From a virus: 50,833 bases of DNA. Made by a program: the position numbers and the translations under genes. Where the stretch lies: positions 1 through 50,833 of the IMG/VR virus record IMGVR_UViG_3300012920_000058; one strand, written 5' to 3'. The notes beneath the pieces were generated by a model. That model was not told the origin of the DNA. It saw nothing but the letters and a program-made list of their open reading frames with translations, and searched no databases. Position 1 is the stretch's first letter. Every line of letters starts with the position of its first letter. Shown here piece after piece: positions 18,292 to 41,359 of this stretch.

Positions 18292-18292
18292 C

Positions 18293-19583: not shown

Positions 19584-19849
19584 CGGTTTAAGACCTTTCT
19601 GAATTCTTTTGTAGGTCGAATGCCTAATCTGATGGACCGCTCTATCGTCCTAGCTTTTGTTTCCGGCACCATTACATTCTGTTTGCGCATTGTAGAACTT
19701 ATCTTACAAACATCCCGTATTTGCACCGATTCTTGTCGGACCAAGCATTCTGTCACTATTTGACCATGCACGTCCAGAATATAGGAAATTGTCGAAGGAG
19801 GCACTCCTGTTCTTTTTGACAACTCTTTTACAAGCTCATTATGTGTCAT
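19565..19849 (-). CDS. HU/IHF-like DNA-binding protein
   Basis: This 94-residue protein has the layout of the HU/IHF family. Its N-terminal helices (MTHNELVKELSKRTGVPPST) match the MTKxELIxxLAxKTG pattern. A dimerisation helix follows, then a beta segment VQIRDVCKI, and a C-terminal R-x-G-I-x-P-x-K-E-F-R-K helix like the family's RNPxTGxx...FKxGKxLK ending. The DNA-binding arm is short and divergent. The start ATG 19849 overlaps the upstream stop (ATGA) with GGAAG nearby. It probably bends or compacts DNA during replication or recombination. Its position between DNA polymerase and RecA-like genes supports this. Confidence 0.75.
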   Translation of the reverse strand: MTHNELVKELSKRTGVPPSTISYILDVHGQIVTECLVRQESVQIRDVCKISSTMRKQNVMVPETKARTIERSIRLGIRPTKEFRKVLNRWKSTL

Positions 19850-20070
19850 ATTTCTTCCGAGTCAGGGCGAAGAATAACCGCGCAGGAAGTAGAGAATAAA
19901 AGCTCGCCACTATCTGTCCTAATTAGCACACCGTTTTCGCTTATCTCTAACAAGATTCCTGACATTGATCCTTTGGTGGCAACTCCGTCCAAACTTAATA
20001 CGTTTACTGCAGTTCCCACCAAACTATTGGATTTTTTTCTAGCTCCCTGACTTTCCGATTGATGCCACAT
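19846..20070 (-). CDS. Small hypothetical protein downstream of DNA polymerase
   Basis: This 74-residue protein has an ATG at 20070 that shares a base with the polymerase stop codon (TAATG). After a basic, serine-rich N-terminus it shows alternating hydrophobic strands (GTAVNVLSLDGV, SGILLEISENGVLIRT, CAVILRP), consistent with a small beta-barrel of SH3, Sm or KOW type. This is only a secondary-structure impression. It ends in an ATGA overlap with the HU-like gene. Confidence 0.65.
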   Translation of the reverse strand: MWHQSESQGARKKSNSLVGTAVNVLSLDGVATKGSMSGILLEISENGVLIRTDSGELLFSTSCAVILRPDSEEI

Positions 20071-22469: not shown

Positions 22470-22486
22470 GTTTTTCCACACTAAAA

Positions 22487-22519
22487 AATGATGGACGGAG
22501 GTAATTTCCGTCCATCATT
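22487..22519 (-). terminator. Intrinsic terminator upstream of DNA polymerase gene
   Basis: Perfect 13-bp inverted repeat AATGATGGACGGA / TCCGTCCATCATT (22487-22499 and 22507-22519) with a 7-base loop. On the minus strand the stem is followed by a T-rich run (TTTTTTAG), the layout of a rho-independent terminator; the plus strand lacks a U-run. It lies between the stop of the zinc-ribbon protein gene (22543) and the polymerase start (22469). Confidence 0.85.
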
Positions 22520-22542
22520 GTTATGACCCAATTCAGACGCGA

Positions 22543-23709: not shown

Positions 23710-24695
23710 TTTATTGACGCTTGCGTCACTGATATTGGGGAGAAACACACATCTAGTATTTCTCCTTCTGATAAATCGTCCGGTTGTTGAGCTTCATCAG
23801 GCAATACTGCCACGGAAACTCTTGAGGACTTCAATTGTCCGGCAATCTTTACTGTGGCCTTTCTTCCTGCCGCATCATTATCTAGGCAAAGAACAATTCG
23901 ACCGCCGAACCTTTCTAATTTCTTTTTTTGTTCAAGGGACATGCTACTGCCCATAAGAGCAACAGTAGTCTCTAGGCCGGCTTGAACCAGCCAGAGAGCT
24001 GCTTTGAATCCCTCCACCACATATATAGTAGGCCTGGCCTCGCTATGCGAAGCTATACTGTGTACTTTATCCTCCCTCCATAAGTAATTACCTTTTCTAA
24101 ACGACTTTACGTTATAGCCAAATTTTAGAAACTCTCGAGTATAAACTTTATACTTTCCGCCGAACTTTACGTGTAATGCCCGTCCGACAATTCCTACTAA
24201 CTCTCCGTTTCTATTTCGAACCGGAAAAGTTATTCTAGCCAGATCTGCATCGAACCCTACATCATTTTGCTGCAGAGTTCTCCAACTAAACCCTGAGTCT
24301 ACTAATGAGGTTGGGCAGGAGTCGAATACGCCTAAGATTTTTTCGGGAAGAACTACCTCCCGATAAGCCTCCTCGTCCAGGTCAGCAACTCTCCTCTTTT
24401 TCGGCATGTGCACGCTAGACAGTATTTGCTCGCTTTTTGTAGGGCTTTCTACCTCCCGAAGAAAGGATTTAAGAGAGCCTCCCCCACAACCCGCAAAGCA
24501 ATACCACTGACCTGTTTCCGCATTTATAGATATGCTTGGAGAACTTTTTCCTGGAGTTTCTCCGTGTATAGGGCAGTACCCTGTGTAGTTGTTTCCACTC
24601 CCTGCCCTAAGCCCCGGTATGTATTTCTGATATACCTCTAATATGCTAGTCCCTAAAAGGGTTCGTCCTTTTCTTTGGACGTTTTTGGACTCCAA
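23694..24695 (-). CDS. dnaG-like: DnaG-type DNA primase
   Basis: Primase of 333 residues with the two hallmark domains. The N-terminal zinc-binding CHC2-type domain has CPIHGE ... YCFAGCG (residues about 40-71). The TOPRIM domain has the glutamate motif IYVVEGFKAA and the DxD motif VLCLDNDAAGR. It is shorter than full bacterial DnaG and lacks the C-terminal helicase-binding region. The start is a TTG at 24695 with a strong AGGAGGAG about 8 bases upstream; the gene overlaps the helicase gene by 50 bases. The tight linkage with the DnaB-type helicase gene suggests a functional primosome pair. Confidence 0.92.
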   Translation of the reverse strand: MESKNVQRKGRTLLGTSILEVYQKYIPGLRAGSGNNYTGYCPIHGETPGKSSPSISINAETGQWYCFAGCGGGSLKSFLREVESPTKSEQILSSVHMPKKRRVADLDEEAYREVVLPEKILGVFDSCPTSLVDSGFSWRTLQQNDVGFDADLARITFPVRNRNGELVGIVGRALHVKFGGKYKVYTREFLKFGYNVKSFRKGNYLWREDKVHSIASHSEARPTIYVVEGFKAALWLVQAGLETTVALMGSSMSLEQKKKLERFGGRIVLCLDNDAAGRKATVKIAGQLKSSRVSVAVLPDEAQQPDDLSEGEILDVCFSPISVTQASIKWRKA

Positions 24696-26049
24696 CAGAA
24701 TTATCTCCTCCTGCTACCATTTGCTGCCCTTCTGAAGCCTCCATTCTGGATTTTTCTTCTAAGAAGCTTTTTATATTAACGCTCCGGTGCAGCACGGAAA
24801 AGTCTCCTCCAGGATTTGCATTAATAACAAACGGGCGTACGATCGCCTCACGGACTTTGGAGAAAACTAGCATGAGGGTTGCGCCGGAACCTGAAGGATG
24901 GGGACCTCTAAACGCCCGAAAAGCAACGTCTGCATCTTGCCCCAGCCCGTCTGAGTATGATAAATCGTCAAGATCTCCCGTAGGGTTTTTGGCATTTTGC
25001 CGATTAGCTTGGGTCGTACCAACAACGGGACACTGAAGATATTGTGCCATGCCCTTCAAATCCTGAGATATATGAGATATTTGCTTCCAATCCACAGTCT
25101 TTGATCCGGATCGACTGTCCCTCATAAGGTATAGTCCGTCTACGAAGACAATGTCTGGCTCGAATCGCTCTGCAACCGCAATTAAGTCTTCAACACTAGA
25201 CGCTCTCCGCTTACCTTTATCCGAGACACTCAGTAGGGCTCTTCTATGTCCACCCTTTGAATCTAGCTCCTCTGCCTTTTCCATAGATTCTAGGTAGTCG
25301 TTTACGTACTGCTCGTCTTCGGGACTTAGAGTTCCTCGTTTGAGATCTCCATAATCCACTCCAGTCAGGACTGAGGCGATACGAGTAAGAATAGCCTGTG
25401 TGTTGATCTCTTTACTAAACACCATAACTCGTTGATTGCATTCGTAGGCGTGGGCCGCCATAGCACACAAAAGCCATGTCTTCATGTTTCCGGGTCTGCC
25501 GTAAATTACGATAAATTCCTCATCCCTCATCCCTCCAGTTTGCCTATTCAGCACGTCCCACGGATAAGGTATACCCACCACACCGCCATGAGTTTTTTGC
25601 GTCTCGTATTCTTGTCGAATAATTTCAGCGGCGTTGCTGATTAGTACTCCCTCATCTGAATGGCTTTCTAGATTTAGGCGACGAAATTTAGGGAGAAAAG
25701 AATCAAGAATGCAGGAAGGGTCTTCATCTTCGTGAAGGGCCTCTGCTATGCCGCCCACTATATCATTCAGCTCTATTTGTATGGATTCTTTCTTTATCTC
25801 CGAAACTAGAGCGGAAATAGAATTTCTGGACGGAGAAAAGTCAAAGTCAGGGAACTTCCTCTGCAGCCTATCGACAGTAGGCACCTCTCCTCGGTGCTGT
25901 GGGTCATGAAATTGATCCCAGAGCCATCGAAATATTTCTTTGGTATCCGCCAGCCTAAAGAAGTCGGGGGTGACGCCTTTCCTTTTTAGAGAAGTAAAGT
26001 CGCCAGTTTCTACTATATTGCTGATAAGCTCTATTTCTGGGTGCGCCAT
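24646..26049 (-). CDS. dnaB-like: DnaB-type replicative helicase
   Basis: Replicative SF4 helicase, 467 residues. An N-terminal helical domain precedes a RecA-like core. Its Walker A-like strand is IVIYGRPGNMKTW, where the usual GK-T/S is replaced by Met-Lys-Thr. The Walker B strand is PDIVFVDGLYLMRD; motif H3 (VVGTTQANRQ) and the C-terminal VAFRAFRG follow. It probably unwinds DNA at the phage fork and partners with the adjacent primase. The start ATG 26049 follows the previous stop by a few bases, with AGGAT about 12 bases upstream. Walker A variants of the RPxxMKTW form are known among phage DnaB-like helicases, so it is probably active. Confidence 0.92.
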   Translation of the reverse strand: MAHPEIELISNIVETGDFTSLKRKGVTPDFFRLADTKEIFRWLWDQFHDPQHRGEVPTVDRLQRKFPDFDFSPSRNSISALVSEIKKESIQIELNDIVGGIAEALHEDEDPSCILDSFLPKFRRLNLESHSDEGVLISNAAEIIRQEYETQKTHGGVVGIPYPWDVLNRQTGGMRDEEFIVIYGRPGNMKTWLLCAMAAHAYECNQRVMVFSKEINTQAILTRIASVLTGVDYGDLKRGTLSPEDEQYVNDYLESMEKAEELDSKGGHRRALLSVSDKGKRRASSVEDLIAVAERFEPDIVFVDGLYLMRDSRSGSKTVDWKQISHISQDLKGMAQYLQCPVVGTTQANRQNAKNPTGDLDDLSYSDGLGQDADVAFRAFRGPHPSGSGATLMLVFSKVREAIVRPFVINANPGGDFSVLHRSVNIKSFLEEKSRMEASEGQQMVAGGDNSVGVQKRPKKRTNPFRD

Positions 26050-26322
26050 TTAAAGGGGATCCTCCGTATCATCATCTAAAAGGGAAGACTCGAAATCTTC
26101 GTTATTTTCCAGGCCTAAATCTGCTTTTATTGCAGCCAATACGGAGGTGGTCAGCTCTTCGGCCAAAAGAACCGTGCTTTCCGCGCTAACGCTTGTTTTA
26201 CCGGCAGCTATACCACCAGAAAACGTTGTGTTTTCTATAACTATTTCATAGTAAACCTCTAAAGCGCCGGACTCTGGAGTCCATGATATTTGGCGCACCT
26301 GTACATCTACCTCTGTCTTCAT
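26050..26322 (-). CDS. Small hypothetical protein with acidic C-terminus
   Basis: This 90-residue protein starts at ATG 26322 in an ATGA overlap with the preceding gene. The N-terminal part alternates hydrophobic strands (VDVQVRQISW, LEVYYEIVIEN), followed by a helix and an acidic tail (ESSLLDDDTEDPL). Strand-helix order resembles the preceding 110-residue protein, so the two may be related in fold. Function is not recognised. It sits directly upstream of the DnaB-type helicase gene. Confidence 0.6.
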   Translation of the reverse strand: MKTEVDVQVRQISWTPESGALEVYYEIVIENTTFSGGIAAGKTSVSAESTVLLAEELTTSVLAAIKADLGLENNEDFESSLLDDDTEDPL

Positions 26323-26651
26323 TCCGACGAGGCCTCTCCATATAGAGCTGTCATTTTGTTATAAGCATCTCTGCAGATAGATGACGCTAGGTCGCTTGCG
26401 GCATCATAGGCATAGCCTACAATCTCTCGGTTCTGAGAGCAAGACAATGTTACGGTCACATGAACATCATAACCGTTTCCGTAGTCCTTGTTAGACATCC
26501 CCAACCCAACAGAAACCTTTGCATTTCCATCACCTACAAGATCTTGTATTTCATTAGAACTCAAGTATAAATCCTCCGCTAAAACTGTGTCATCTAGAGA
26601 AAAACTGTCGGTCCCATTGCGAGCCGACCCCTTTACGGTTCCGATGATCAC
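26319..26651 (-). CDS. Small hypothetical protein
   Basis: This 110-residue protein starts at GTG 26651, overlapping the previous stop as GTGA, with AAGGA six bases upstream. Visible features are beta strands around residues 45-75 (KVSVGLGM, YDVHVTVTLSC) and a following alanine-rich helix (AYDAASDLASSICRDAY). No domain was recognised. It forms a coupled trio with the genes on either side between the uracil-DNA glycosylase and DnaB-type helicase genes. Confidence 0.6.
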   Translation of the reverse strand: MIIGTVKGSARNGTDSFSLDDTVLAEDLYLSSNEIQDLVGDGNAKVSVGLGMSNKDYGNGYDVHVTVTLSCSQNREIVGYAYDAASDLASSICRDAYNKMTALYGEASSE

Positions 26652-27067
26652 TGTAAGTCCTTAGGTATTATTACCCGGGTAGTTGACCGAGTTTCCGTAG
26701 CCAGTTCCTCGTAAACAACCTTCAGCTCTGTCGGGAGGCGGTCGAGCTGATTTACGTTAACTGAGTAATCCAGAAATCCATATTTGATTAGTTTTTCTGT
26801 CTGACCCAGTTCTTCTGCGGTTTCGATTACGTCTGCCACGTCAAAAGTCTTCTTTGGCTTTCCTCCCTGAACTTCAAATCTGTAGCCCGAAATTTGATGA
26901 GACCCCACTCCGAGACCTCTAAGCTCTGTTTTAGCTTCATTAATAATGGATTTCTTCTCCACGATTAATTGTCTAAGCCTAGCAACTTCTGCAGGCATGG
27001 CGGATTCTAGGTCTTCCCATAAAAGGCCAATTTCCCTGTTTATTCCAACTAATTTTTCTGCACTCAT
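26648..27067 (-). CDS. Hypothetical protein with N-terminal coiled coil
   Basis: This 139-residue protein starts at ATG 27067 with a GGAGG five bases upstream. Residues about 5-50 form a probable coiled coil (heptad-like Leu/Ile spacing), followed by GYRFEVQGGKPKKTFD and a helical segment. The layout (coiled coil, then a Gly-Tyr strand and a KPKK patch) vaguely resembles phage host-nuclease-inhibitor-like proteins, but this is only an impression. The neighbours are a uracil-DNA glycosylase and a DnaB-type helicase. Confidence 0.6.
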   Translation of the reverse strand: MSAEKLVGINREIGLLWEDLESAMPAEVARLRQLIVEKKSIINEAKTELRGLGVGSHQISGYRFEVQGGKPKKTFDVADVIETAEELGQTEKLIKYGFLDYSVNVNQLDRLPTELKVVYEELATETRSTTRVIIPKDLQ

Positions 27068-27076
27068 GAAAGCCTC

Positions 27077-27799
27077 CTACAGCCCAAAGTTGGGACGCGT
27101 AAGTTCGTAGTGTTTTGTGATTAAGTCAAGGCCGTATTTTAGGTCTTGAATTGTAGAGTAGGTGTCCCCTTGCCCCTGACGCACCAACGCCTTGTCCCCT
27201 TTCCGCAACAAATAAGACGGAGAGAGAATTGCCAACATGGGGTACCTAACTTTTTTATTTGTCGACGGCGATGTCACCGATATGTCGAAAATCGTGCCTC
27301 TTTTATCAAGTATAGACACATTTTTTCCTAGTAAGGTAGTCGCTGCAGTTTTTCCCGCTGCTATTACCAGCAGAGGATCTATTGCATAAATTGTGTTCTC
27401 AAGTCTGCTTCGGCAGTTTTTAATCTCTTCCTTTGAGGGAGTACGATTTTCTGCGGAGCGACATAAGATTGTATTAGTAAAGAATACGTGCTCCTCCAAA
27501 AAGTCTTTTAGAGATGCAAAGTATCTTTCATTATCTTGTATTTCTCTGAGTTCCGATAATCTTTCTGGACTAGGCCAGGACATATCGAATAGCTGCAGAA
27601 GCAGCCTTCCGGACTTCCCCATCAACGTTTCGTTTTCTTCGTCTTCCTGCTCTCCAGGGCTTTCGCCCACAAAGACAATGTCTGCCGATGCGCTCCCAGA
27701 CCCGAAAACGGGCTGAAGTCGACTTTCACACAACAGAGGACATTTCTCGCAGTTACGGTACTCTTCGTATAGAAGCCGCAAGGCTTCTTTGCCTACCAT
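27077..27799 (-). CDS. Family 4 uracil-DNA glycosylase
   Basis: Predicted to remove uracil from DNA, or to act as an accessory of the replisome. The 240-residue protein has the family-4 signature: an N-terminal CEKCPLLCESR Fe-S cysteine pair, FVGESPGEQEDEE (the GExPGxxE motif), VFFTNTILCR with a downstream NC cysteine, and IDPLLVIAAGKTA. Four cysteines for a 4Fe-4S cluster are available (two N-terminal, one in ILCR, one in IKNCR). ATG 27799 has GGAGG six bases upstream. It lies between the UvsW-like helicase and the small-protein trio in the replication operon. In some large phages this domain is fused to the DNA polymerase; here it is free-standing. Confidence 0.88.
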   Translation of the reverse strand: MVGKEALRLLYEEYRNCEKCPLLCESRLQPVFGSGSASADIVFVGESPGEQEDEENETLMGKSGRLLLQLFDMSWPSPERLSELREIQDNERYFASLKDFLEEHVFFTNTILCRSAENRTPSKEEIKNCRSRLENTIYAIDPLLVIAAGKTAATTLLGKNVSILDKRGTIFDISVTSPSTNKKVRYPMLAILSPSYLLRKGDKALVRQGQGDTYSTIQDLKYGLDLITKHYELTRPNFGL

Positions 27800-27813
27800 G
27801 TAGTTCCTCCAAT

Positions 27814-29190
27814 TTAATTAGGTCTCCAGTTCTTTTTGACCTCGAATCCCTGTTTCTTTGATTCCCGTATTAGTGAGTAAATCATGCCCCTGCACATCTC
27901 CAAGTTGGAGTCTAGAAACAGAAACACCATTGGGTGCTTCTTACCGGGATGCTTTCTTTGTATTCTGCCGACGCTCTGCTGAAAGGTTATGGCGGAGTGG
28001 CTTTTCGCCGCAAAAGGAGTCACTAAGAGGAGGGTGTCTAGGTCCTTACGATTATAGGCTTCCTTGCCTACTCCTACAGTCGCGAACACCAATTTAGCGC
28101 CGTGTAGGCGTTCTAGTCTTTCCGAAGATTTAACTTTTCCGTGAATCATAGTGCTGTCTGGATATATTTCGTGCAAATGCTCGACGTGCTCTACAGAGTG
28201 GGAGAGGACATATAGTGTTCTGCCTTGTGCTAAGCCCCAGCGTATTACCGAATGGATAATGTCGTTTCTAGCGGAGTGCCGAGCCAACTCTTGCCGCATT
28301 AGTCCTACATTGAGTTGCCCCGACCGGTCATGCATAGCCTTTAGCTGCTTATCTCTAAAAAACAACCCCGTCTCTACTACATTAACTGTAGGGCTCAGGT
28401 CTTGGCTTAGGTCGGTGTAGAATATAGGACCTAAGTGAGACAAGAATATTCCCTCATTCCTGTCGGTTCTATTGGGGGTCGCTGACAGTCCAATACGAAT
28501 TCCCAGTCCGATATCTGCTGCTTTAGAAAACATATCGGCAGCCATACAATGACACTCATCATAGATGATTAGTCCGAAGTTTTCGAAAAACTCTTTGGGC
28601 AGCTTTCCTTCTTCTGACCTACGTGCCAATGTCTGTATCGTTGCAAAACAAATATCAGATTCTACGTCGAACCGCTTACCTTGTATCCAACCAGTTTCGC
28701 CATCAAAATCAAAGAATGCTTCGAGTTCCGATAACCAGTTCTCAAGGTGCGCTTTTTGCGGGGATACAATTAGTGTAGGAACTTTTTCGTGGGCAGCTTT
28801 TAGCCATCCCAACACCGTCTTTCCTTTACCGCAGGCCAGGTTCAAAATTCCTTTTTTTGTTGCGGCAAAAGCCTCCCAAGCTTCTCGTTGATTTTCCCGT
28901 AGCTTAAAAGAATCTTTAGCTTTTAGATTTATTTGGCGGAACTCTTTGGGGCGTAGATCTACTATAGTAGAACTTCCAAAACCCTTTAGCTGCGCATCAG
29001 TAAAAGATTCGAGAGGAACTTCAAAATGATTCTTATGTTCTTTTACCAAAACTCTAGGAGTGCCGTCAGGAAACTCCCCAAAACGAAGAGAGCCTTTCAA
29101 TAAAGATTCTGGCACCAAGTCTGTAGGTAGGAAAAGGGATCGCTCTTTATACACGATCCCCTCCATTAAGCTGTTGATGTTTTCTATCAA
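27814..29190 (-). CDS. SF2 DNA helicase (UvsW/RadD-like)
   Basis: Superfamily 2 helicase of 458 residues. Visible motifs in order are motif I ILNLACGKGKT, Ia LIVSPQKAHLENW, Ib FATIQTLARR, motif II LIIYDECHCM (DECH), motif III IGLSATPNR, and motif VI SVGRIQRKHPG. This is the layout of UvsW-type branch-migrating helicases that process recombination intermediates. I kept a TTG start at 29190, overlapping the upstream stop as TTTGATAG; ATG 29166 is the alternative and would shorten it by 8 residues. It heads the replication operon after one small gene, with RecA-like and resolvase genes downstream. Confidence 0.92.
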   Translation of the reverse strand: MIENINSLMEGIVYKERSLFLPTDLVPESLLKGSLRFGEFPDGTPRVLVKEHKNHFEVPLESFTDAQLKGFGSSTIVDLRPKEFRQINLKAKDSFKLRENQREAWEAFAATKKGILNLACGKGKTVLGWLKAAHEKVPTLIVSPQKAHLENWLSELEAFFDFDGETGWIQGKRFDVESDICFATIQTLARRSEEGKLPKEFFENFGLIIYDECHCMAADMFSKAADIGLGIRIGLSATPNRTDRNEGIFLSHLGPIFYTDLSQDLSPTVNVVETGLFFRDKQLKAMHDRSGQLNVGLMRQELARHSARNDIIHSVIRWGLAQGRTLYVLSHSVEHVEHLHEIYPDSTMIHGKVKSSERLERLHGAKLVFATVGVGKEAYNRKDLDTLLLVTPFAAKSHSAITFQQSVGRIQRKHPGKKHPMVFLFLDSNLEMCRGMIYSLIRESKKQGFEVKKNWRPN

Positions 29191-29603
29191 ACCTTGTCCC
29201 TCTTCTTTCTCGAGGCAAAGGGACTTGGGTATCTTTTCCTTGGCACTGACTCTGCCGCTTCCACTGCCGTCTCCAGTCCCGCCTGGAGGCTGTTTATGCA
29301 GGCGTTGTGTATTAGTGCGGAAAAGAACGTATCCCCTTCCTCGTAGTCTTCTGTAACTCTACTTACTGCTGCTCTTGATTTTCTTTGAAGTGCTCGAGGC
29401 TCTCGTACGGTCACCGGTCTGTTTTGCCTTTCATTATGAGATCTGGCTCGTTTTTCCGACACTACTCGGCAGGTGCTTTGGACAGGACATGCCCTGCACT
29501 GAGGATCGTCTCCTTCGTAGTAGTCCGGATCCCCGTAACATTCCGGCTTGTTAGATTCTCTTCGGGAATGGGCTCCGAATCTTTGACTAAAAGAATTTGA
29601 CAA
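29187..29603 (-). CDS. Small Cys-rich basic protein, first gene of the replication operon
   Basis: This 138-residue protein starts at TTG 29603, preceded by AAGGAG about 10 bases upstream. The N-terminal third holds a cysteine cluster (CYG, then CRACPVQSTC, residues about 22-45) that could bind zinc or an Fe-S cluster. The rest is basic and arginine-rich, and the C-terminus ends RKKRDKV. The CRACPVQSTC spacing is typical of small iron-sulfur or zinc modules, but no family was identified. It is the first gene after the divergent control region, so it may be expressed early, possibly as a regulator. Confidence 0.65.
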   Translation of the reverse strand: MSNSFSQRFGAHSRRESNKPECYGDPDYYEGDDPQCRACPVQSTCRVVSEKRARSHNERQNRPVTVREPRALQRKSRAAVSRVTEDYEEGDTFFSALIHNACINSLQAGLETAVEAAESVPRKRYPSPFASRKKRDKV

Positions 29604-29724
29604 TTATCGTAATCTCCTTTTTTACATTTTATTATGTTTTTAGTGTAGTGTAATATTAGCTACACGGTCCTGTATCCTTATGACAGACTATGATAGATTC
29701 TGCATAATCGCTCCGGAGTAAAAT
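29604..29724. promoter_or_regulatory. Divergent intergenic control region
   Basis: This 121-base AT-rich gap separates the minus-strand replication operon from the plus-strand virion cluster. It contains an inverted repeat, described separately. On the plus strand ATGACA (29680-29685) and CATAAT (29703-29708) are spaced 17 bases apart, each one mismatch from the sigma70 consensus; but a start there would fall at the Shine-Dalgarno site, so a more upstream start is likely. A TATGAT hexamer also occurs at 29689-29694. Exact promoters cannot be fixed by eye. Confidence 0.55.
29643..29665. repeat. Inverted repeat GTGTAG-N11-CTACAC with central TAATATTA palindrome
   Basis: GTGTAG (29643-29648) and CTACAC (29660-29665) are exact inverted copies flanking 11 bases that contain the self-complementary octamer TAATATTA (29651-29658). 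The arrangement looks like an operator or bidirectional promoter element in a divergent region. The same octamer occurs at 35030-35037 upstream of the RNA polymerase gene. Confidence 0.6.
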
Positions 29725-32412: not shown

Positions 32413-34422
32413 ATGAATGTAATAAGTAGCGAAATTAATCGATTTAATCCCCGCCCCCATTCTTATGAAGGGGCGAGAGGATATGGGATTAGATATCCTT
32501 CTCCATTTTTCGATGTATCTCAGCAGTTTTTGCCATCAAATGTCCACCAGCTTCATAAGTGGTGTCGCTACTATTTTCTGACTAATCCCGTAATAAATGT
32601 AGCTTGTTCCAAAATGGCAGAGTACCCGGTAACTCCCCTAATATTTGAGACAGAGGACAAGCAGCTACACTCCCTTTACAAGGGGCTGGAAGAACATCTC
32701 AAGTTACGCGCATTTCAGGTCGAGGTTGGACTAGATTATTTTGTTTATGGAAACGCGTTTGTATCTGTATTTTTTCCACTAAAGAAATTCTTAGTATGTA
32801 CTAAATGCAAGACCCGATATCGAGCGGATAAGAACAGAAGCAAATACAAATGGAAGAACAATAAGTTCTTTCTAAAGTGTGATTGTGGGCACCAAGGATA
32901 CGCGGACCAAAGAGATGTTTACATTCGGAGTGTGCGTGATGTCAGAATTGTTAGATGGAATCCCGAGAACATAGAGCTAAAGCATAACGAAATAACTGGC
33001 AAGACTAAGTACTATTTCAAGCTTCCTCGAGCAGTAGTTAACGACATAAAAATGGGAGACCGGGACACCATCGAAACACTCCCGCTAGAGTTTATCGAGG
33101 CAGCTCAGAAGAATAAGTCATTGTTGTTTAACGACGACAACATATATCATCTAAAAAGACCCACTATAGCCCAGAAAGATCAAGGGTGGGGCACTCCTCT
33201 AATAATGCCGTTATTAAAGGATGCTTTCTATCTTCAAGTTATGAAGAAGGCGCAAGAATCCATACTCATGGAGCACATAGTTCCTCTCCGAGTAATATTT
33301 CCTGGACAGAGTACGGGAGGGAACGAGGGTCCGTACGGAGCGTACAACCTTACTAACTGGAAGAACAAGGTAGACTCGGAAATAAACATGTGGAGACGAG
33401 ACCACAATTATATTCCGGTTCTACCTGTAAATATTGGCTATCAACAGCTAGGAGGCAACGCCCGAGCGCTTTTGATGTATCAAGAGATGCGACTAGTGGC
33501 GGAGCAGATGTTGGCGGGCGCAGGCATACCTGTTGAGTTCATATTTGGCGGATTACAGTGGAGCGGATCTAGTACGTCTCTTCGAGCATTAGAAAATATG
33601 TTCCTTGGCTACAACAAGCAGCGACATGAACTAGTTAATGGCTTCATATTAAAAAAGATTTCGTCGTTCATGCAGTGGCCCGAAGTAAGTTCTCGTTTCG
33701 ATAAGTTTAAAATGGCTGATGATCTTCAGAGAAGTATGTTCTACCTGCAGCTAAATCAAGCTCAGAAGATTAGTGATAGAAGGCTCATCGAAGAGATAGG
33801 CGAAGACTTTGACCTCGAGAACTCTAGAATGTCAGAAGAGATGAAGAAAACTCTTCAAGTCCAGAGAAAGATGCAGGTTGCTGGTGCTGACATTCAAGGC
33901 GAAGCTCAGCTAAAAACGTCTAGGTATCAGGCTAAGGCACAAGCCATAGCTATGAAGGCTCAAATGGATGCTCAAATGGAGCAGCAACAGGCGATGCAGC
34001 AACAGCAGCAACAGGCGCTACCTCAGCCTGGACCGGAACAGGCACCGGCACCTGCACAGCAGCCTCAAGAAGTTCCAGGTATGCCGGAGGGCGCAACTGC
34101 ATACTCAGAAAATGCAGGTTCTCCTAATCAGCAAAATATGCCCGTTGCAATGAGTGGAATGGAATCGCAGCTCCAGGCCGGATCTGGAGGCGTAGATCTG
34201 AGATACATAGCGCAGAGAGCTGCTGCCTATTTAAGAACAGTTAAAAAAGAGTCTGGAGCAGAGGCGATGTACTCGGAACTCCAGACATTACAGGTAAATA
34301 ACCCAACACTTTATCAATTAGTAGTCCAGTTGATTGATAATACAGGATCCAAGGAGAACCCTATGGATGCTGCACAAAATTCAAACCCTAGTCCTCAGGC
34401 AGACGTATCAAGGCAGGTTTAG
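32413..34422 (+). CDS. Portal protein with embedded zinc ribbon
   Basis: Predicted portal (head-tail connector) subunit, 669 residues, through which DNA would be packaged and ejected. Portal-like features are an N-terminal segment with TNPVINVACSKMAEYPVTP, a long alpha/beta core, the conserved-looking YQEMRLVAEQMLAGAGIP followed by FGGLQWSGSSTSLR, and a glutamine-rich, largely disordered C-terminal tail (residues about 510-610). A zinc-ribbon-like insertion lies at residues 129-158 (C129-x2-C132 and C156-x-C158). ATG 32413 follows directly after the upstream stop. The plus-strand cluster context (virion genes) supports the assignment. The 3' end overlaps the minus-strand gene that ends at 34388. 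Confidence 0.8.
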   Translation: MNVISSEINRFNPRPHSYEGARGYGIRYPSPFFDVSQQFLPSNVHQLHKWCRYYFLTNPVINVACSKMAEYPVTPLIFETEDKQLHSLYKGLEEHLKLRAFQVEVGLDYFVYGNAFVSVFFPLKKFLVCTKCKTRYRADKNRSKYKWKNNKFFLKCDCGHQGYADQRDVYIRSVRDVRIVRWNPENIELKHNEITGKTKYYFKLPRAVVNDIKMGDRDTIETLPLEFIEAAQKNKSLLFNDDNIYHLKRPTIAQKDQGWGTPLIMPLLKDAFYLQVMKKAQESILMEHIVPLRVIFPGQSTGGNEGPYGAYNLTNWKNKVDSEINMWRRDHNYIPVLPVNIGYQQLGGNARALLMYQEMRLVAEQMLAGAGIPVEFIFGGLQWSGSSTSLRALENMFLGYNKQRHELVNGFILKKISSFMQWPEVSSRFDKFKMADDLQRSMFYLQLNQAQKISDRRLIEEIGEDFDLENSRMSEEMKKTLQVQRKMQVAGADIQGEAQLKTSRYQAKAQAIAMKAQMDAQMEQQQAMQQQQQQALPQPGPEQAPAPAQQPQEVPGMPEGATAYSENAGSPNQQNMPVAMSGMESQLQAGSGGVDLRYIAQRAAAYLRTVKKESGAEAMYSELQTLQVNNPTLYQLVVQLIDNTGSKENPMDAAQNSNPSPQADVSRQV

Positions 34423-34744
34423 ATAATAAGATTAATACAGGACTTCGGAAGCCGCATACTTCGCAGCAGCCGTCCGACCAAAAAGGATAAGGAATAAGAT
34501 CTGGGTGAACGCAGTTACTGCACACCCACACATAGTCCAAGAAAGAAGACTCAATGAGGGAGCAGTCTCCGCAATTAACATTACTACATTTGCCTCTTAA
34601 AAGCGGGCAATATGCAACGTTTACCGGCTCGTCAAAAACTTTCGGCGTTTCGGGTACTAATGTATTTGGGGAAAGCCCTTCGAGACCGGAAATTATCCGA
34701 TCTCGAAAAGCATTTTTCTTTTTACTCAAGGTGGTACAGCACAT
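34388..34744 (-). CDS. Small Cys-rich hypothetical protein
   Basis: This 118-residue protein uses ATG 34744; in-frame TTG codons at 34762 and 34729 are alternatives. It contains at least three cysteine pairs or sets in its second half: CPLLRGKCSNVNCGDC, VCSNC and CCEVCG. It may therefore fold around two metal ions. It belongs to a minus-strand mini-operon of three small genes divergent from the RNA polymerase gene, and its 3' end overlaps the portal gene end by 35 bases. The function is unknown. Confidence 0.55.
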   Translation of the reverse strand: MCCTTLSKKKNAFRDRIISGLEGLSPNTLVPETPKVFDEPVNVAYCPLLRGKCSNVNCGDCSLIESSFLDYVWVCSNCVHPDLIPYPFWSDGCCEVCGFRSPVLILLSKPALIRLPED

Positions 34745-34814
34745 CTTCTGCGTATTCCTCAAACTCCGTGAGAAATCCGATCAAGACGCCCACCCCAAAA
34801 ATTATTTGGATCAT
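34722..34814 (-). CDS. Very small membrane-like protein (30 aa)
   Basis: Thirty-codon frame with ATG 34814 in an ATGA overlap with the upstream acidic gene; TAA at 34722-34724. The first 15 residues (MIQIIFGVGVLIGFL) are strongly hydrophobic and could span or insert into a membrane, followed by an acidic tail. The stop-start coupling is the main support; very short length leaves doubt. Confidence 0.45.
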   Translation of the reverse strand: MIQIIFGVGVLIGFLTEFEEYAEDVLYHLE

Positions 34815-34981: not shown

Positions 34982-35062
34982 TTTTTATCTCCTTATTTTT
35001 TTCACAAAGTACGGGATATACTCTGCTATTAATATTATGACGTAAATTAGGAGTTTATTGTA
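34982..35062. promoter_or_regulatory. Divergent intergenic region upstream of RNA polymerase gene
   Basis: This 81-base AT-rich gap separates the acidic small protein (minus) and the RNA polymerase gene (plus). It contains the octamer TAATATTA (35030-35037), which also lies in the 29604-29724 divergent region. A plus-strand Shine-Dalgarno (TTAGGAG, about 35047-35053) precedes the ATG at 35063. A weak extended -10-like TGCTATTAAT (35024-35033) is present. The precise promoter is unresolved. Confidence 0.5.
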
Positions 35063-38000
35063 ATGGCTAACCTGGATCCAGAGGGCGCGTTTCGCTCCCT
35101 TGAAAATCGAACCAAAGAAGCCATCCAAAGTCATTTCCCAGTTAAAGGGAAAGTTCACAGGCTTGAGCTAGTAAGACTTTGGACAGAATCGGATGATTCT
35201 AGCCGAGAAGGCAGGCACCACATTGATAACCTTACCCAGCAACGAGAAGCTAAGTTGCAGGACAGAACTTGGGGCCCTCTTATACGAGGAGAGTTCAAGC
35301 TAATAGAGATATCTTCTGGGAAGATCATCGACACTAAGGTTAAAACTCTGGCTCAGCTGCCAAAAATAACCAGAAGATATAGCTACATTGTTGACGGAAA
35401 TGAGCGGCAAGTAGACGGCGTATTCCGCCTCAACCCAGGAGCGTATCACGCAGAAGCCGATAATGGCGACTTGTTGGCCAAGTGGAATGTGGCTGCGGGC
35501 AGTAAGATTGGCGCGTTCGATTTAGCGATTGAAAGAAGAGATGGCAAACGACTCGGGCTTATACGGATGAAAGTCAAGAGCGGAGACAGCTCTACTCGGC
35601 TGATACCGATCTATGGCATACTTCTGGCTCTTAATGTCCCGGAATCGAGTATTAGATCTGCTCTGGGCGAAAAAGTATTTGAAATAAATAGAAAGGCGTA
35701 CAAGCCTCAAGATCTTTTAGACTTTCATCAAGCAGTAGCAGGTAGAAGAGACAAAAAGAATTATCAGGCTCCATCGCTACAAGAAGCCAGACAGTATATA
35801 CGAGACATCTTTGCCAATGCAGAAGTTAATCCGGAGACTATGTTATCTTCTGTAGGGAAAAAATTCTCAAACATAAGTGGAGAAGCTCTTACACTTTCAG
35901 CGCGTAAATTAGTTAAGATCTCTAAGGGGGAAGCGGAAGAAGACGATAGGCAATCGCTCTCTAATAAAAGATTATTTGGGATAGAAGATTTTGTTCATGA
36001 ATCTCTTACTAAGCGAAACAAAGTTTATGAACTCCAAAGAAAGATAAGAAACAACTTAGATAGAAAAGATCGAATTGATGACATCATACCTGCCCCATCT
36101 AGTGGATATGGGAAGGCCATCTCTTCAGTATTTAAGCAAGCTCAGTTGCCAACTCAGACCAACCCTTTACAGTTCATATCTAATCACACCAGGACCACCA
36201 TATTAGGGCAGGCATTTGGAGGAATTAAAGGAGACAACATAAACCTGGATAGGGATAAGCTGATAAACCCCAGTCATTTGGGGCTATTAGATCCGCTACA
36301 AACCCCTGAAAATCAAGCTACTGGTGTCGCTCTTCATGTCCCCTTGGGTAGTAAGAAAATAGGACATTCTCTTCGCGCCAGGGTCATCGACATAAAGACA
36401 GGAAAGCCTGTATATAAGTCTTCTGCGGAGCTTGAAAGAGCAGTAGTTGCCTATCCAGATCAAGTCAAGCTAACTAAAAATTCCAACGGTACATTTAAGG
36501 TAACTCCCCTTGCAAAAGAAGTGGTCGTTTACGATTCGGATCGAAGCACTGCTAAGCGCTCTTGGAATGAAGTTCAGTACGTACTGCCATCCGCTAAACA
36601 CCTATTCTCTGTCAGTGCGAATATGATCCCGTTTGTCCAGAATAACAACGGCAACCGGGCTATGATGGCGGCAAAGCATCAAGAGCAAGCGGTAGGACTT
36701 ACCAATCGAGAGGAGCCTTTAGTGCAGTCTTTGGCTTCTGGGTCTACTTCTTTTGAAAAGATGATGGGCACATTTTCCAGCACCATCAGCGATATAGAGG
36801 GGAAGGTCAGTAAGGTTACTGAAGAAGGAATATGGGTAAAGCCTAAGCAGGGCAAAACGATAAAACACAGCATCTATAATTATCATCCATTAAATGGATC
36901 GAAACATATGATGCATTCTACTCCAAAAGTTAAGGTAGGAGATCAAGTAAAGAAAGGCCAGCTTTTAGCAGACTCTAACTTTACTAATAAGGGGTCTCTG
37001 GCCCTGGGAACTAACCTTAGAGTGGCTTATGTTCCTTATAAGGGATACAACTTTGAAGACGGTATCGTAATATCTCAGTCTGCTTCTGAAAAATTAGTGT
37101 CTTCGCATTTACATGTCGAGTCCGCACTAATGACCCCAAATGTGGTAGTTAATAAAAAGCTGTGGCGGGCTTATGCGGGACTAAATAAGGCAACTGCAGA
37201 AACGCTAAACTCATTAGACGAAGACGGAATTATCAAAAAAGGTACAAAGGTTCAGCCTGGAGATGTGCTGTTAGCTTTACTGCAAAAGTCAGATCCTTCT
37301 AGAGAATCTAGAAACATACAAAAATCACTAAAAAAAGCGATACGAGACTACACAGATAGATCCCTCATCTGGAACCATGAGTACGGTGGAGAAGTTGTAC
37401 GGATTGTAAAGAATAGACGTAAGATCTCTATTTACATAAAAACCAACCAGACTATGGAAGTAGGGGATAAGCTTTCGGGAAGGCACGGAAACAAGGGGAT
37501 CATAACTAAGATTCTTCCTGACGATGAAATGCCTAAAGATAAAAGCGGAAACCCTGTCCAGGTATTACTAAGTCCGGCGGGAGTTCCCTCCAGAATGAAC
37601 GTAGGGCAGCTGTTAGAGACCACTGCAGCTAAGATAGCCAAAAAGACTGGGAAGCCATATGTAGTAGAGAATTTTGACTCTACAGTAGACTATACAAAGA
37701 AAGTCCAAGACGATCTAAAGAAGCACGGGATTAGCGATACCGAAGAGCTATTTGATGCTGAGACAGGCAAGAGTCTGGGACAGATATTGGTCGGACCTCA
37801 GTATATGCTGAAGCTCGATCATCAGGCGGAGAAAAAGGTTTCTGCAAGATCGGGCGGATTTGGCTATGCCTATAAGCCTTCTGGAGAGGCGATATCAGGA
37901 TCTGGAATAGGAAAAGGAGGACAAAAAATTGGGTCTTTGGATTCCTATGCTTTGTTAGCACATGGAGCGTCTCACAATCTCAGAGAAATGCAGACGTATA

Positions 38001-41000
38001 AGTCAGATCAAGATCAAGCCGAAACTGTTTGGCTTAGGATCATGGAAGGCGGGCGTCCTCCCACCCCTAAAGTTCCGAGATCTATGGATCACTTCAAGCG
38101 TTATCTACGCGGGTTAGGAGTCTACACTGAGGAGAAAGCCGGAGTATACGGACTAAGTCCGATGACCGACAAACAGATAGTCGCCCAAAGTAATGGAAAG
38201 CTGTCTATGCCGGAAAAAACACTTTTGGCCAAGGGCGCTTTAACTAAGGAAGAGAAAGGCGGTCTTTTTGATTTTAAAAAGACTGGAGGCATAGACGGGC
38301 AGTACTGGACCCATGTAGATCTAGGAACTCGTTTGCCTAACCCTGTTTTTGAGGGACCTATCCAAAGTTTAATTGGAGTAACCAAGAAAGAGTATGAAAA
38401 ATTAGTTAGTGGGGAGGACCCCAAAGGCTTTCAAAAGATAGAAGAGAAGTTGTCTTCTATTAATGTCAATAAAGAATTAAAAGAGGCAACTAGTAAGTTA
38501 AAGACCGCAAAGAAAAACGAACTTAACAAGTTGTACAAACGGGTTAGATATCTTAAAGCCCTAAAAGATCTAAATATTAGTCCAGTAGACGCCTACACCA
38601 ATAAGATGCTTCCCGTTCTACCGCCTAAGCTGCGAAAAATTAGTATAGGGTATGATGGAACCCAAATCATAGATCCATTAAATCAGTTGTATGCAGCGGT
38701 AGGGCAGATGACCACTGAACTAGCGGCAGCTAAAAAGGTGGGAAGAGGCGGGAAAGACTTAGCAAATGTAGAAGCAAAGCTATACGACGCAGTTCGGGCT
38801 TTGCGAATGACCGGTGCCCAGATAGAGGGTAAGCAATACCCCAGCCTTATGGATAAGTTAACCGGCACCAAGCCTAAAAACTCTTTCTTTCAAGAAGGGG
38901 TTTTGGGAAAGCGACAAGACTTGTCGGGGCGGTCCGTAATCACTCCAGAACCTAAATTGAGTATGGATGAAGTAGGAGTTCCTACTCCCATAGCTATGGA
39001 GGTGTATAAGCCCTTCGTCATTAGAGAGTTATGGAGAAGAATGGGAAGGGCAAGTAGCGCAGGGCAGGCCCGTAAGATGATAAAGCAGAATCATCCGTCC
39101 GCAACGGAAGCACTAGAGAGAGTAATAAAAGATAGGCCTGTGCTGCTAAAAAGAGACCCGACATTACATAAGTTTGGGATAATGGCGTTTAAGCCTAAGT
39201 TAGTGACCGGAAAATCGATAAAAGTACACCCTCTTATCGTAGGAGGGTTCAACGCGGATTTTGACGGCGATACTATGGGGCTGTTTGTCCCAATTTCAGA
39301 AAAGGCTAAAGACGAAGCACTTCACAAGATGCTGCCTTCTAAGAGCTTATTTTCTCCCACTCACGGCGGAATCATGGTGACTCCAAGTCAAGACGGGATA
39401 CTAGGGCTATATCACGCCACTAAATGGGGGAAGAGAGCGGCTGGGGTATTTACTAAAGAACAGGCTTTGGCGCAGATGAAGTCAGGCAAGCTAAAATCCT
39501 CATCAGTCATAAAGATAAAGGGAATGGATAAACTGACAACTCCAGGTAGGCTGGCCTTGAATGATTCTTTGCCTCCCGAGTTTAAAGGAGATGCAAAGAT
39601 CCTACATGACTCTTCTTATAGAATGTCTAAGAAGCCCATGAAGGCATTAGCGACCGATATAGCCAGAAGTAACCCGGAAGCATTTTCTCGAATGATTGAT
39701 AAATGGAAAGAGCTAGGGTTTTATCAGGCGTATTCAAATGGAAGTTCTTTTTCTCTAAAGGACTTCCATGATGGAAAAGAAATTAGAGATCAAATTCTTA
39801 GACCGTATAAGAAAAAAGAAGCAGAAATTAGAAGGTCTAAGAAAAGCCGAGCAACCAAAGACAAGGAAATAATAACGCTATACCAGAAGGCCAGACAAGA
39901 ACTACAGTCCGTAGGGGAGGCGAGGTACAATCGCCTGGATAATAACAAGATGTGGGAATGGGCGCAGAGTGGGGCAAAGTCTGACTGGAATCAATTTAGC
40001 CAATTAGTAATGGGACCTATTTTAGTTCAAGACCCTAAAAAAAGAACCGTACCGGTACCATTGACCAAGTCTTTTGGAGAAGGTCTTCCTGTATCTCAAT
40101 ACTGGGCTTCTCTGCACGGAGCCAGAAAAGGTACTTTAGATCGTGCAGCAGGGACCAAAGATCCTGGAGCACTAACTAAAGAGTTGATAAATACTGTAAT
40201 AGGGCAATCTATTGATAAAAAAGACTGTGGCACTACTAGAGGATCCTTATTAAATACGAACGTTAGCGACATAGAGGGTAGGTACTTAGCCAAAGATGTA
40301 GAGTTAAAGGGAGGAGATAAGATACTTAGAGGAACCCTTATTACTACTAACCTTCACACCAGACTCAAGAACTCCGGCCCTCAAAAAGTTCTTGTTAGGT
40401 CTCCTCTGCATTGTCAGGTATCCAACGGTATTTGTGCTACATGTTACGGTTTGAGTGAGCGCGGCAAACCATACGAAGTAGGCACTAACATAGGAATAAT
40501 CGCAGGACATGCATTAGGAGAGCCCGTAACTCAGATGCAGATGCGCACATTTCACACAGGTGGAGCAGGAAGTAGCGCAGTCGATGACTACTACGCAAGA
40601 GCCAAAGACTTATTCAAGGTGCCTAAAAAGCTAAGAGGACAGGCCACCCTATCCACGGTTAGCGGAACGGTACAGAAGATTACTCCAGATGCATTAGGCG
40701 GAAAAGTTGTGCGTATCGATAATAAAGATCACATAGTTCCGCACACCAACGAGCTTTTGCCTTCTGTGAGAGTTGGAACTCAGATTAGAAAAGCAGAAGC
40801 ATTATCCACAGGGAGAAAGAACCCTCATGAAATCCTAAAGATAACTAACAGCATATCGGCAGTTAGGAATCATATTACTTCTGAGCTTGGCAAACTTTAC
40901 ATGGATAGCACGGGGATCGGGAGAAGAAGGAACGTAGAAGTAGTGGTCAGGGCGATGACGGATGTCACGTCCGTTGGAAATAATTCGGAAGACGAAGGAC

Positions 41001-41359
41001 TTCTAAGAGGACAATTAACTTCGCTGTCGGCTCTTGAGAATAGGAATAAAGAATTAAAAATGTTAGGGTTACCAGAGGTCAAGCATACGCCAGTGCTAAA
41101 ATCACTCGATAAAGTACCTTTATCGGGACAGGAAGACTGGATGGCTAGACTTAATTTTCAGCGTCTTAAGGATACTTTCGTGGAAGGCACTGCTCAAAAT
41201 TGGAAATCAGATATTAATGGACATCCGATACCTGGACTGGCGCACGGTGCGGAATTTGGAGTAGATAAGACTCCTACACTTACAACTAGCGCTCTTAAAG
41301 TAAATCTACCTGAAATAAAGAAAAATCCTTCTTTTAGTTTTTTTGGGAAAGGACAATAA
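35063..41359 (+). CDS. rpoBC-like: Fused beta/beta-prime multisubunit-type RNA polymerase
   Basis: DNA-directed RNA polymerase core in one 2098-residue chain. The beta part (about residues 1-1015) has TYIVDGNERQV-like and TNPLQFIS (N367) segments, PLQTPENQATG, IPFVQNNNGNRAMM, GYNFEDGIVIS (661-671), KLSGRHGNKG (803-812), VPSRMNVGQ and HNLREMQTYKSD. The beta-prime part (about 1020-2098) has YGLSPMTD and GLFDF, then LPVLPPKLR, LGKRQDLSGRSVI and PVLLKRDPTLHKFGI. The catalytic NADFDGD motif (Asp1399, Asp1401, Asp1403), the bridge helix QYWASLHGARKG (1679-1690), four Cys of the second zinc site (1722, 1784, 1791, 1794) and MRTFHTGG follow. The N-terminal beta-prime zinc domain is absent. ATG has a GGAG nearby. 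It sits between portal and spike genes, so it may be virion-packaged, which is inference. Confidence 0.95.
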   Translation: MANLDPEGAFRSLENRTKEAIQSHFPVKGKVHRLELVRLWTESDDSSREGRHHIDNLTQQREAKLQDRTWGPLIRGEFKLIEISSGKIIDTKVKTLAQLPKITRRYSYIVDGNERQVDGVFRLNPGAYHAEADNGDLLAKWNVAAGSKIGAFDLAIERRDGKRLGLIRMKVKSGDSSTRLIPIYGILLALNVPESSIRSALGEKVFEINRKAYKPQDLLDFHQAVAGRRDKKNYQAPSLQEARQYIRDIFANAEVNPETMLSSVGKKFSNISGEALTLSARKLVKISKGEAEEDDRQSLSNKRLFGIEDFVHESLTKRNKVYELQRKIRNNLDRKDRIDDIIPAPSSGYGKAISSVFKQAQLPTQTNPLQFISNHTRTTILGQAFGGIKGDNINLDRDKLINPSHLGLLDPLQTPENQATGVALHVPLGSKKIGHSLRARVIDIKTGKPVYKSSAELERAVVAYPDQVKLTKNSNGTFKVTPLAKEVVVYDSDRSTAKRSWNEVQYVLPSAKHLFSVSANMIPFVQNNNGNRAMMAAKHQEQAVGLTNREEPLVQSLASGSTSFEKMMGTFSSTISDIEGKVSKVTEEGIWVKPKQGKTIKHSIYNYHPLNGSKHMMHSTPKVKVGDQVKKGQLLADSNFTNKGSLALGTNLRVAYVPYKGYNFEDGIVISQSASEKLVSSHLHVESALMTPNVVVNKKLWRAYAGLNKATAETLNSLDEDGIIKKGTKVQPGDVLLALLQKSDPSRESRNIQKSLKKAIRDYTDRSLIWNHEYGGEVVRIVKNRRKISIYIKTNQTMEVGDKLSGRHGNKGIITKILPDDEMPKDKSGNPVQVLLSPAGVPSRMNVGQLLETTAAKIAKKTGKPYVVENFDSTVDYTKKVQDDLKKHGISDTEELFDAETGKSLGQILVGPQYMLKLDHQAEKKVSARSGGFGYAYKPSGEAISGSGIGKGGQKIGSLDSYALLAHGASHNLREMQTYKSDQDQAETVWLRIMEGGRPPTPKVPRSMDHFKRYLRGLGVYTEEKAGVYGLSPMTDKQIVAQSNGKLSMPEKTLLAKGALTKEEKGGLFDFKKTGGIDGQYWTHVDLGTRLPNPVFEGPIQSLIGVTKKEYEKLVSGEDPKGFQKIEEKLSSINVNKELKEATSKLKTAKKNELNKLYKRVRYLKALKDLNISPVDAYTNKMLPVLPPKLRKISIGYDGTQIIDPLNQLYAAVGQMTTELAAAKKVGRGGKDLANVEAKLYDAVRALRMTGAQIEGKQYPSLMDKLTGTKPKNSFFQEGVLGKRQDLSGRSVITPEPKLSMDEVGVPTPIAMEVYKPFVIRELWRRMGRASSAGQARKMIKQNHPSATEALERVIKDRPVLLKRDPTLHKFGIMAFKPKLVTGKSIKVHPLIVGGFNADFDGDTMGLFVPISEKAKDEALHKMLPSKSLFSPTHGGIMVTPSQDGILGLYHATKWGKRAAGVFTKEQALAQMKSGKLKSSSVIKIKGMDKLTTPGRLALNDSLPPEFKGDAKILHDSSYRMSKKPMKALATDIARSNPEAFSRMIDKWKELGFYQAYSNGSSFSLKDFHDGKEIRDQILRPYKKKEAEIRRSKKSRATKDKEIITLYQKARQELQSVGEARYNRLDNNKMWEWAQSGAKSDWNQFSQLVMGPILVQDPKKRTVPVPLTKSFGEGLPVSQYWASLHGARKGTLDRAAGTKDPGALTKELINTVIGQSIDKKDCGTTRGSLLNTNVSDIEGRYLAKDVELKGGDKILRGTLITTNLHTRLKNSGPQKVLVRSPLHCQVSNGICATCYGLSERGKPYEVGTNIGIIAGHALGEPVTQMQMRTFHTGGAGSSAVDDYYARAKDLFKVPKKLRGQATLSTVSGTVQKITPDALGGKVVRIDNKDHIVPHTNELLPSVRVGTQIRKAEALSTGRKNPHEILKITNSISAVRNHITSELGKLYMDSTGIGRRRNVEVVVRAMTDVTSVGNNSEDEGLLRGQLTSLSALENRNKELKMLGLPEVKHTPVLKSLDKVPLSGQEDWMARLNFQRLKDTFVEGTAQNWKSDINGHPIPGLAHGAEFGVDKTPTLTTSALKVNLPEIKKNPSFSFFGKGQ

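Follow-up and report, generated by a model that had tools for sequence, protein, structure and literature searches.

How much of a bacterial RNA polymerase can a phage carry in one gene, and how would it use such an enzyme? The question is raised by a stretch of viral DNA of 50,833 bp (IMG/VR record IMGVR_UViG_3300012920_000058; below, "the window"), which is one whole contig, classed as linear and probably a fragment. On its plus strand, positions 35063-41359 hold an open reading frame (ORF) that runs from ATG to stop over 2,098 amino acids (aa) with zero internal stops. A preliminary description, made from the letters alone, had read this frame as a phage RNA polymerase in which beta and beta-prime (beta') are fused in one chain. 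Every motif that it quoted lies in the order given: GYNFEDGIVIS (residues 661-671), GRHGNKG (806-812) and VPSRMN (841-846) in the beta part, followed by LGKRQDLSGRSVI (1281-1293), NADFDGD (1397-1403), HGARKG (1685-1690) and MRTFHTGG (1827-1834) in the beta' part. Both the fusion and its partnership with a dedicated phage sigma factor are well supported by our analysis, and the working enzyme is probably the single chain plus this sigma rather than one protein.

The protein has the core of a bacterial-type two-barrel RNA polymerase, with the beta/beta' domain order, the DxDxD signature and the conserved beta motifs all present. Pfam matches are RNA_pol_Rpb2_6 (8e-67), Rpb1_2 (1e-31) and Rpb1_5 (2e-24), and NCBIfam matches are rpoC (5e-158), rpoB (PRK00405, 3e-120) and fused rpoBC (PRK09603, 3e-168). 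In both databases the rpoB domains fall in the first half and the rpoC domains in the second, so the profile search that had been suggested as a check recovers both halves as well as the fused model. All three NCBIfam scores are below the curated cut-offs, as expected because the polymerase is a divergent member. The parts of the gene, all on the plus strand, are as follows.

35063-41359 (+): single-chain beta-beta' RNA polymerase gene, 2098 aa (open frame, profiles, motifs)
35063-38137 (+): beta half, residues 1-1025 (RpoB alignment, AlphaFold model, PDB match)
37478-37498 (+): beta motif GRHGNKG (motif search)
38120-38158 (+): beta/beta' joint, residues ~1020-1032, almost no linker (alignments, structure match)
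38138-41356 (+): beta' half, residues 1026-2098, with the zinc-binding/zipper region deleted (alignment, structure)
38424-38456 (+): equivalent of the second cut, found in three-piece relatives, residue ~1121-1131 (comparison with relatives)
38675-38812 (+): clamp coiled-coil helices, residues 1205-1250, likely dock of sigma region 2 (predicted helices, alignment)
39251-39271 (+): catalytic NADFDGD, residues 1397-1403 (motif; invariant in the family)
39524-39550 (+): equivalent of the first cut, found in two-piece relatives, residue ~1488-1496 (comparison with relatives)
40223-40444 (+): second zinc site, C1722, C1784, C1791 and C1794 (invariant in alignments)
40541-40564 (+): trigger-loop motif MRTFHTGG (motif search)

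Alignment with three RpoB sequences places the end of the beta half where bacterial beta stops, and alignment with four bacterial RpoC sequences places the start of the beta' half at about E. coli beta' residue 16-27; by alignment and structure alike the joint (residues ~1020-1031) is virtually linker-free. AlphaFold models of the two halves are good (predicted local distance difference test scores of 81.6 and 82.2). The beta-half model matches RpoB in the PDB (E 3e-71) and the beta'-half model matches RpoC chains (Z 35.9 across 1003 residues), a match that pairs window residue 1025 with residue 16 of beta', so structure prediction also agrees with the fusion. The beta' half is, however, not a complete beta': the canonical motifs are kept, but the N-terminal zinc-binding/zipper segment of beta' is deleted in the alignment, both in the window protein and in L066. 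Retained in beta' are the second zinc site, the catalytic aspartates, the bridge helix, the trigger loop and the clamp coiled-coil. The rifampicin contacts, which we take to be D516, H526 and S531 (E. coli numbering), align with T364, N374 and T379 of the window protein, and the polymerase is therefore predicted to be rifampicin-resistant.

Whether related phages carry the fusion had been left open, and the answer is that they do: it is carried by a widespread uncultured lineage, and four isolates have a partly fused version. An IMG/VR protein search returned 15 full-length single-chain relatives at 61-98% identity (ORFs of 2098-2126 aa), of which the closest, a contig of a different record, is 98% identical and the 14 others lie at 61-73%; gene order round the polymerase is collinear with two relatives, of 142 and 165 kb. 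Searching with an alignment yielded 137 related stretches, and 80 of these were retained. After isolates were added and most duplicates removed, we counted 42 single-chain, 12 two-piece and 17 three-piece loci and one cut inside beta, a count that includes a few loci truncated by a contig end and some near-identical ones. The genomes yielded one polymerase each; no second copy was found in them.

In the isolates, Salmonella phage Arash and Vibrio phages D69, D148 and D181, beta and the N-terminal part of beta' are fused and the C-terminal part of beta' is separate. The cut in two-piece members (Arash, D69 and others) lies at residue ~1490, behind the catalytic barrel and near the cyanobacterial boundary (end of rpoC1 and start of rpoC2, placed on the window protein with NCBIfam models), which is common to the jumbo-phage enzymes (PMC7598289). 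Three-piece members have an additional cut at ~1122, about 100 residues inside beta' and not at the beta/beta' border, so that the C-terminus of their "beta" is a beta' N-terminus (GGL[FY]D, then GG..G..W.HY). In L093 and L117 the first two pieces are 0 and 38 bp apart, and these are therefore true splits, not introns.

Two- and three-piece members together form one clade (FastTree 0.997; ultrafast bootstrap 99), within which the three-piece members are a nested clade (100). Monophyly of the two-piece members without the three-piece members is rejected by the approximately unbiased (AU) test (p-AU 2e-51). The joint is retained in every chain state, and because the three-piece "beta" still ends in the beta' N-terminus, the fusion predates the splits. 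Sequence comparison thus indicates that fusion is the ancestral state of the lineage and that separate chains arose by later, stepwise re-splitting.

Some of these polymerase genes are interrupted in other ways. Intein-like inserts occur in the single chains of L077 (three, at window-equivalent residues 416, 1403 and 1831) and L092 (two, at 842 and 1403); each has one insert directly behind NADFDGD, and L077 has another in the trigger loop. Vibrio phage D148 carries group I introns (RF00028; L020, 5482-5762 and 1685-1892), one of them inside the polymerase gene and adjoining a homing endonuclease; it was not found in the corresponding D69 gene.

If the core is one chain, which other subunits accompany it? 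Alpha (PF01000) was matched in none of 15 phage records, many of them fragments; the same profile matched in 13 of 14 control genomes. Sigma region 2 (PF04542) was matched in Arash and D69 only and in none of the window's relatives. A weak region-4 match pointed to a protein of 277 aa that is conserved in two of these relatives (57% identity). Both copies score above the cut-off for Pfam Sigma70_r3 (40.3 and 34.5 vs 25.3 bits) and below it for Sigma70 region 4 (21.2 and 13.5 vs 24.1 bits), and the protein is homologous to Arash gp10 (E 4e-23). On a sigma-family profile, lineage members score 120-442 bits, whereas the sigmas of bacterial genomes reach at most 47.

This sigma and the polymerase travel together. 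One divergent sigma is present in every polymerase-carrying genome tested of at least 142 kb, and the polymerase contigs without a sigma match are all fragments of at most 134 kb. In the reverse direction, five of five close sigma matches carry the polymerase, as do all 7 further long sigma contigs checked. For scanning a collection the whole-family sigma alignment was too diverse, and closer sequence sets took its place. A near-full-length copy occurs in four of 50,697 annotated phage records (Arash, D69, D148 and D181), which are exactly the isolates with this polymerase. Isolate Carin-5, outside the lineage, has an annotated sigma next to its polymerase; the sigma profile does not match that protein.

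A candidate for what such an enzyme would read comes from the non-coding DNA. When all 7-mers are ranked by non-coding enrichment, the top one is GTCATAA in the 165-kb relative (G004), GCCATAA in a 131-kb relative (G005) and GGTATAA in Arash. The promoter-like motif of the window's family is (AAA)-N15-G(T/C/G)CATAA, with the A-tract ~15 nt upstream, and that of Arash is GGTATAAG. The sigma-28 promoter is TAAA-N15-GCCGATAA, which the A-tract, spacer and GNNATAA appear to resemble. Under a stricter gene model, 16 of 26 sites in the 165-kb relative, 15 of 32 in the 131-kb relative (G[TCG]CATAA) and 30 of 38 in Arash are non-coding (p 9e-9, 5e-7 and 2e-16, respectively). The motif points into the replication/early strand: non-coding sites lie opposite to the polymerase/structural strand in 14 of 16, 15 of 15 and 29 of 30 cases in these three genomes, and in 8 of 8 in the 142-kb relative. 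Three such sites in the window have counterparts by position.

35035-35041 (-): promoter-like GTCATAA, leftward, divergent from the polymerase gene and heading a small gene (counterparts in four relatives)
29678-29684 (-): promoter-like GTCATAA heading the replication gene strand (counterparts in four relatives)
22521-22527 (-): promoter-like GTCATAA upstream of the DNA polymerase gene (counterpart in G002)

Antisense between portal and polymerase, at 34388-34762 (-), lies a cysteine-rich (zinc-ribbon-like) ORF of 124 aa that is conserved among relatives (in G002 with 45% identity over 101 aa) and is probably read from the site at 35035-35041. Other non-coding elements stand out as well. Arash (OQ632216.1) has near-identical repeats (CCTAATCTTATATAAGGGTCTTGAGGTGGGGTTACAAAGGTTACAACGTTTGAA) near 26766, 100269 and 138616 and a strong enrichment of the 7-mer GGTTACA, and in G009 and G004 (contigs of L009 and L004) the palindromic GGGGCCC/GGGCCCC is enriched, sometimes just upstream of the promoter-like motif.

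How the enzyme would reach its promoters is suggested by its neighbourhood, which in the window comprises the following.

32413-34422 (+): portal protein gene upstream of the polymerase, homologous to the Arash gp204 portal (protein match, 31%, E 1e-91)
16483-29603 (-): replication/early module with Cas4-like exonuclease, UvsX/RecA-like protein, DNA polymerase A, primase, DnaB-like helicase, uracil-DNA-glycosylase-like protein and helicase (gene annotation)

Whatever the chain state (single-chain, two-piece or three-piece), a portal gene lies upstream of the polymerase, and the Arash sigma gene sits among terminase and tail genes. In the published particle proteome of Arash, Gp206 (beta plus N-terminal beta') has 3516 spectra, the highest of all proteins, and Gp216 (C-terminal beta') and the sigma Gp10 have 1210 and 467 (PMC10585845). 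The authors call Gp206 beta and mention neither the fusion nor a promoter (PMC10585845). For the window's polymerase, presence in the virion is indicated by homology to these Arash data only, and we infer delivery in its own phage by analogy.

We regard as the probable explanation a virion-carried, sigma-dependent, alpha-free, single-chain holoenzyme for early genes. What was computed here in its favour is the fusion, the intact catalytic parts, the loss of the zinc-binding region, the lack of an alpha match, the co-conservation of sigma, and the enrichment and orientation of the motif. The catalytic core would be one polypeptide, beta (1-1025) running into beta' (1026-2098), whose covalent linkage would stand in for the alpha assembly platform. 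Core and divergent phage sigma would form the holoenzyme, sigma region 2 probably docking on the kept clamp coiled-coil, and it would read the lineage's promoters, an A-tract, ~15 nt and G(T/C/G)CATAA or the Arash form. Because both genes sit close to portal and tail genes on the structural strand, polymerase and sigma would probably be made late, packaged and injected with the DNA, and the injected enzyme would transcribe early genes without the host RNA polymerase. We infer that sigma binds this core and reads this motif, and that the two are delivered together. For the wider view, in which tailed phages package a self-sufficient holoenzyme and start infection without host RNA polymerase, and in which the lineage records a fusion that was later split again, repeatedly and at fixed sites, so that multi-piece phage polymerases arise by a derived route, we lean only slightly in favour.

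Several observations weigh against this account. Enzyme activity across the lineage is a prediction, and the sites are promoter-like and could be read by the host enzyme. The promoter case rests on the relatives: taken by itself, the window has 5 sites, of which 3 are non-coding (p 0.003), and no significant strand bias. The window itself has no sigma gene; in relatives it lies ~50 kb from the polymerase and would therefore fall outside the 50.8-kb fragment. Arash and D69 have a second, unrelated sigma (L021 2483-3520, Arash gp196; L019 1849-2625, D69), with region 2 present and no match to the gp10-family profile, which might serve late genes. The tree is weak at its deep nodes, and it neither supports monophyly of the single-chain members nor allows its rejection (p-AU 0.28, 5000 resamplings); because it is left standing, the argument for an ancestral fusion is drawn from the joint that the members share and from beta' being contiguous in bacteria. 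The Arash authors, who detected 116 proteins, caution that abundant intracellular proteins may contaminate particles (PMC10585845).

That caution leads to a rather unlikely alternative, in which the enzyme is a non-virion one, made early by host RNA polymerase, that pairs with the phage sigma and transcribes middle/replication genes, its signal in Arash particles being carry-over. Ribonucleotide reductase and other metabolic enzymes are also in the particle list, and the non-virion RNA polymerases (nvRNAPs) of phiKZ-like phages act in this fashion. However, the spectral count of Gp206 tops even the major capsid protein, polymerase and sigma keep to structural clusters beside portal or tail genes throughout the lineage, and with one polymerase found per genome no separate virion enzyme is known.

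Quite improbable, in our judgement, is that the phage sigma works with host RNA polymerase on the motif promoters, the single chain initiating sigma-independently, in the manner of the phiKZ and AR9 enzymes, which use factors of their own. Phage sigmas do act with the host enzyme in phages that lack a polymerase (PMC7598289, PMC7824862), and the binding of sigma to the single chain is putative. Yet the near-full-length sigma is confined to phages with this polymerase, the single chain retains the clamp coiled-coil, and the motif differs from phage to phage.

Recent capture of a natural bacterial fusion is very improbable. Natural rpoBC fusions (Helicobacter, Wolbachia) join the beta C-terminus to the beta' N-terminus, and the fused rpoBC NCBIfam models score high here; those enzymes are cellular and keep alpha, omega and the beta' zinc-binding domain, which is deleted in the phage protein. 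The same joint is present in distant relatives at ~30% identity, and the best cellular matches are to Bacillota and Actinomycetota, again at ~30%. In the phylogeny that the preliminary description had called for, the phage clade stands on a long branch (1.2) apart from all 17 bacteria sampled, a set without Campylobacterota, Rickettsiales, archaea or eukaryotes. The polymerases of isolates Carin-5 and Rhizobium TM30 fall outside the clade, though on long branches. "Phage" records with apparently bacterial rpoB/rpoC were used solely as outgroups or alignment partners; OR844998, OR846602, CAKLQH020000005 and AFYI01000006 are filed as phage and appear to carry ordinary bacterial rpoB/rpoC (contamination or misfiling). 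An assembly chimera, frameshift artefact or pseudogene, conceivable for a polymerase seen on a single contig, is practically ruled out by fifteen other full-length contigs with the same uninterrupted ORF across the joint and intact catalytic residues, two of them with collinear neighbours.

Is this polymerase a known one? Metagenomic Caudovirales RNA polymerases, termed mReC, were published in 2020 (Weinheimer & Aylward, PMC7481178), and on the description in that paper's main text the window lineage is likely the same. Likenesses are the tailed metagenomic phages, profile-detectable beta/beta', intact NADxDGD, a polymerase beside caudoviral hallmark genes and, judged against the 17 bacteria sampled, a long separate branch; the difference is that mReC is treated as two subunits, in a main text without fusion, sigma or virion role (PMC7481178). 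With equivalent family models in place of the paper's COG models, beta and beta' are both recognised, each at least 800 aa long, and NADxDGD and phage hallmark genes are present as well. The mReC capsid marker PF07068 was not matched in 15 records, with the control silent too, and terminase PF03237 is present in 7 of 9, over the cut-off in 2. New here are the dedicated sigma and the promoter-like motif, mReC-like phage polymerases as such being already published; in the literature searched, limited to open-licence papers, neither a fused polymerase of the mReC type nor a sigma belonging to one was described.

Arash, D69, D148 and D181 share a ~31% identical polymerase, the same beta-beta' joint, the portal upstream and an orthologous sigma with the window lineage, but in them a cut behind the catalytic barrel turns the rest of beta' into a separate protein of ~610 aa. 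The Arash gene gp206 is annotated plainly as "beta" and the D69 genes as hypothetical. The virion RNA polymerases and nvRNAPs of phiKZ and AR9 are likewise alpha- and omega-free phage enzymes related to beta/beta', with a virion copy for early genes; they differ in consisting of four to five very divergent chains with no recognisable sigma homologue (PMC7598289, PMC13282480). The window lineage has one chain, canonical motifs and, in relatives, a sigma-70 family partner, and the one chain and sigma homologue rule out a phiKZ/AR9-type identity. CrAss-like phi14:2 gp66, P23-45 gp96/gp64 and YonO are also single polypeptides, gp66 and gp96 being virion enzymes, but mainly the double barrels and few other elements are common to them and cellular RNA polymerase (PMC10770324). 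The near full-length RpoB and RpoC match rules out this identity as well; set against single-subunit RNA polymerases, the window protein comprises nearly all of a bacterial beta-beta'. Fused-barrel derivatives of multisubunit enzymes receive a passing mention in PMC10770324.

If the proposed account is true, a compact, nearly complete and apparently alpha-free bacterial RNA polymerase sits in one gene and has a sigma and a promoter to itself; it would be a tractable model of the role of assembly subunits and a possible orthogonal expression tool. It would also be a testable case of viral remodelling of the cell's transcription machine. The pieces of phiKZ-type enzymes have been argued to be primordial, older than the last universal common ancestor, and not products of splitting (PMC7824862). 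In the window lineage, though another phage group, splitting did occur, once near the boundary common to cyanobacterial and jumbo-phage enzymes, which makes it testable whether multi-piece phage RNA polymerases are primordial or split products. Annotations can be corrected: Arash gp206 is beta plus N-terminal beta', and hypothetical genes of D69, D148 and D181 are RNA polymerase pieces and sigma.

Elsewhere in the window, positions 6307-14847 (+) hold an ORF of 2846 aa, probably a tail/fibre protein, the length of which varies widely between relatives.

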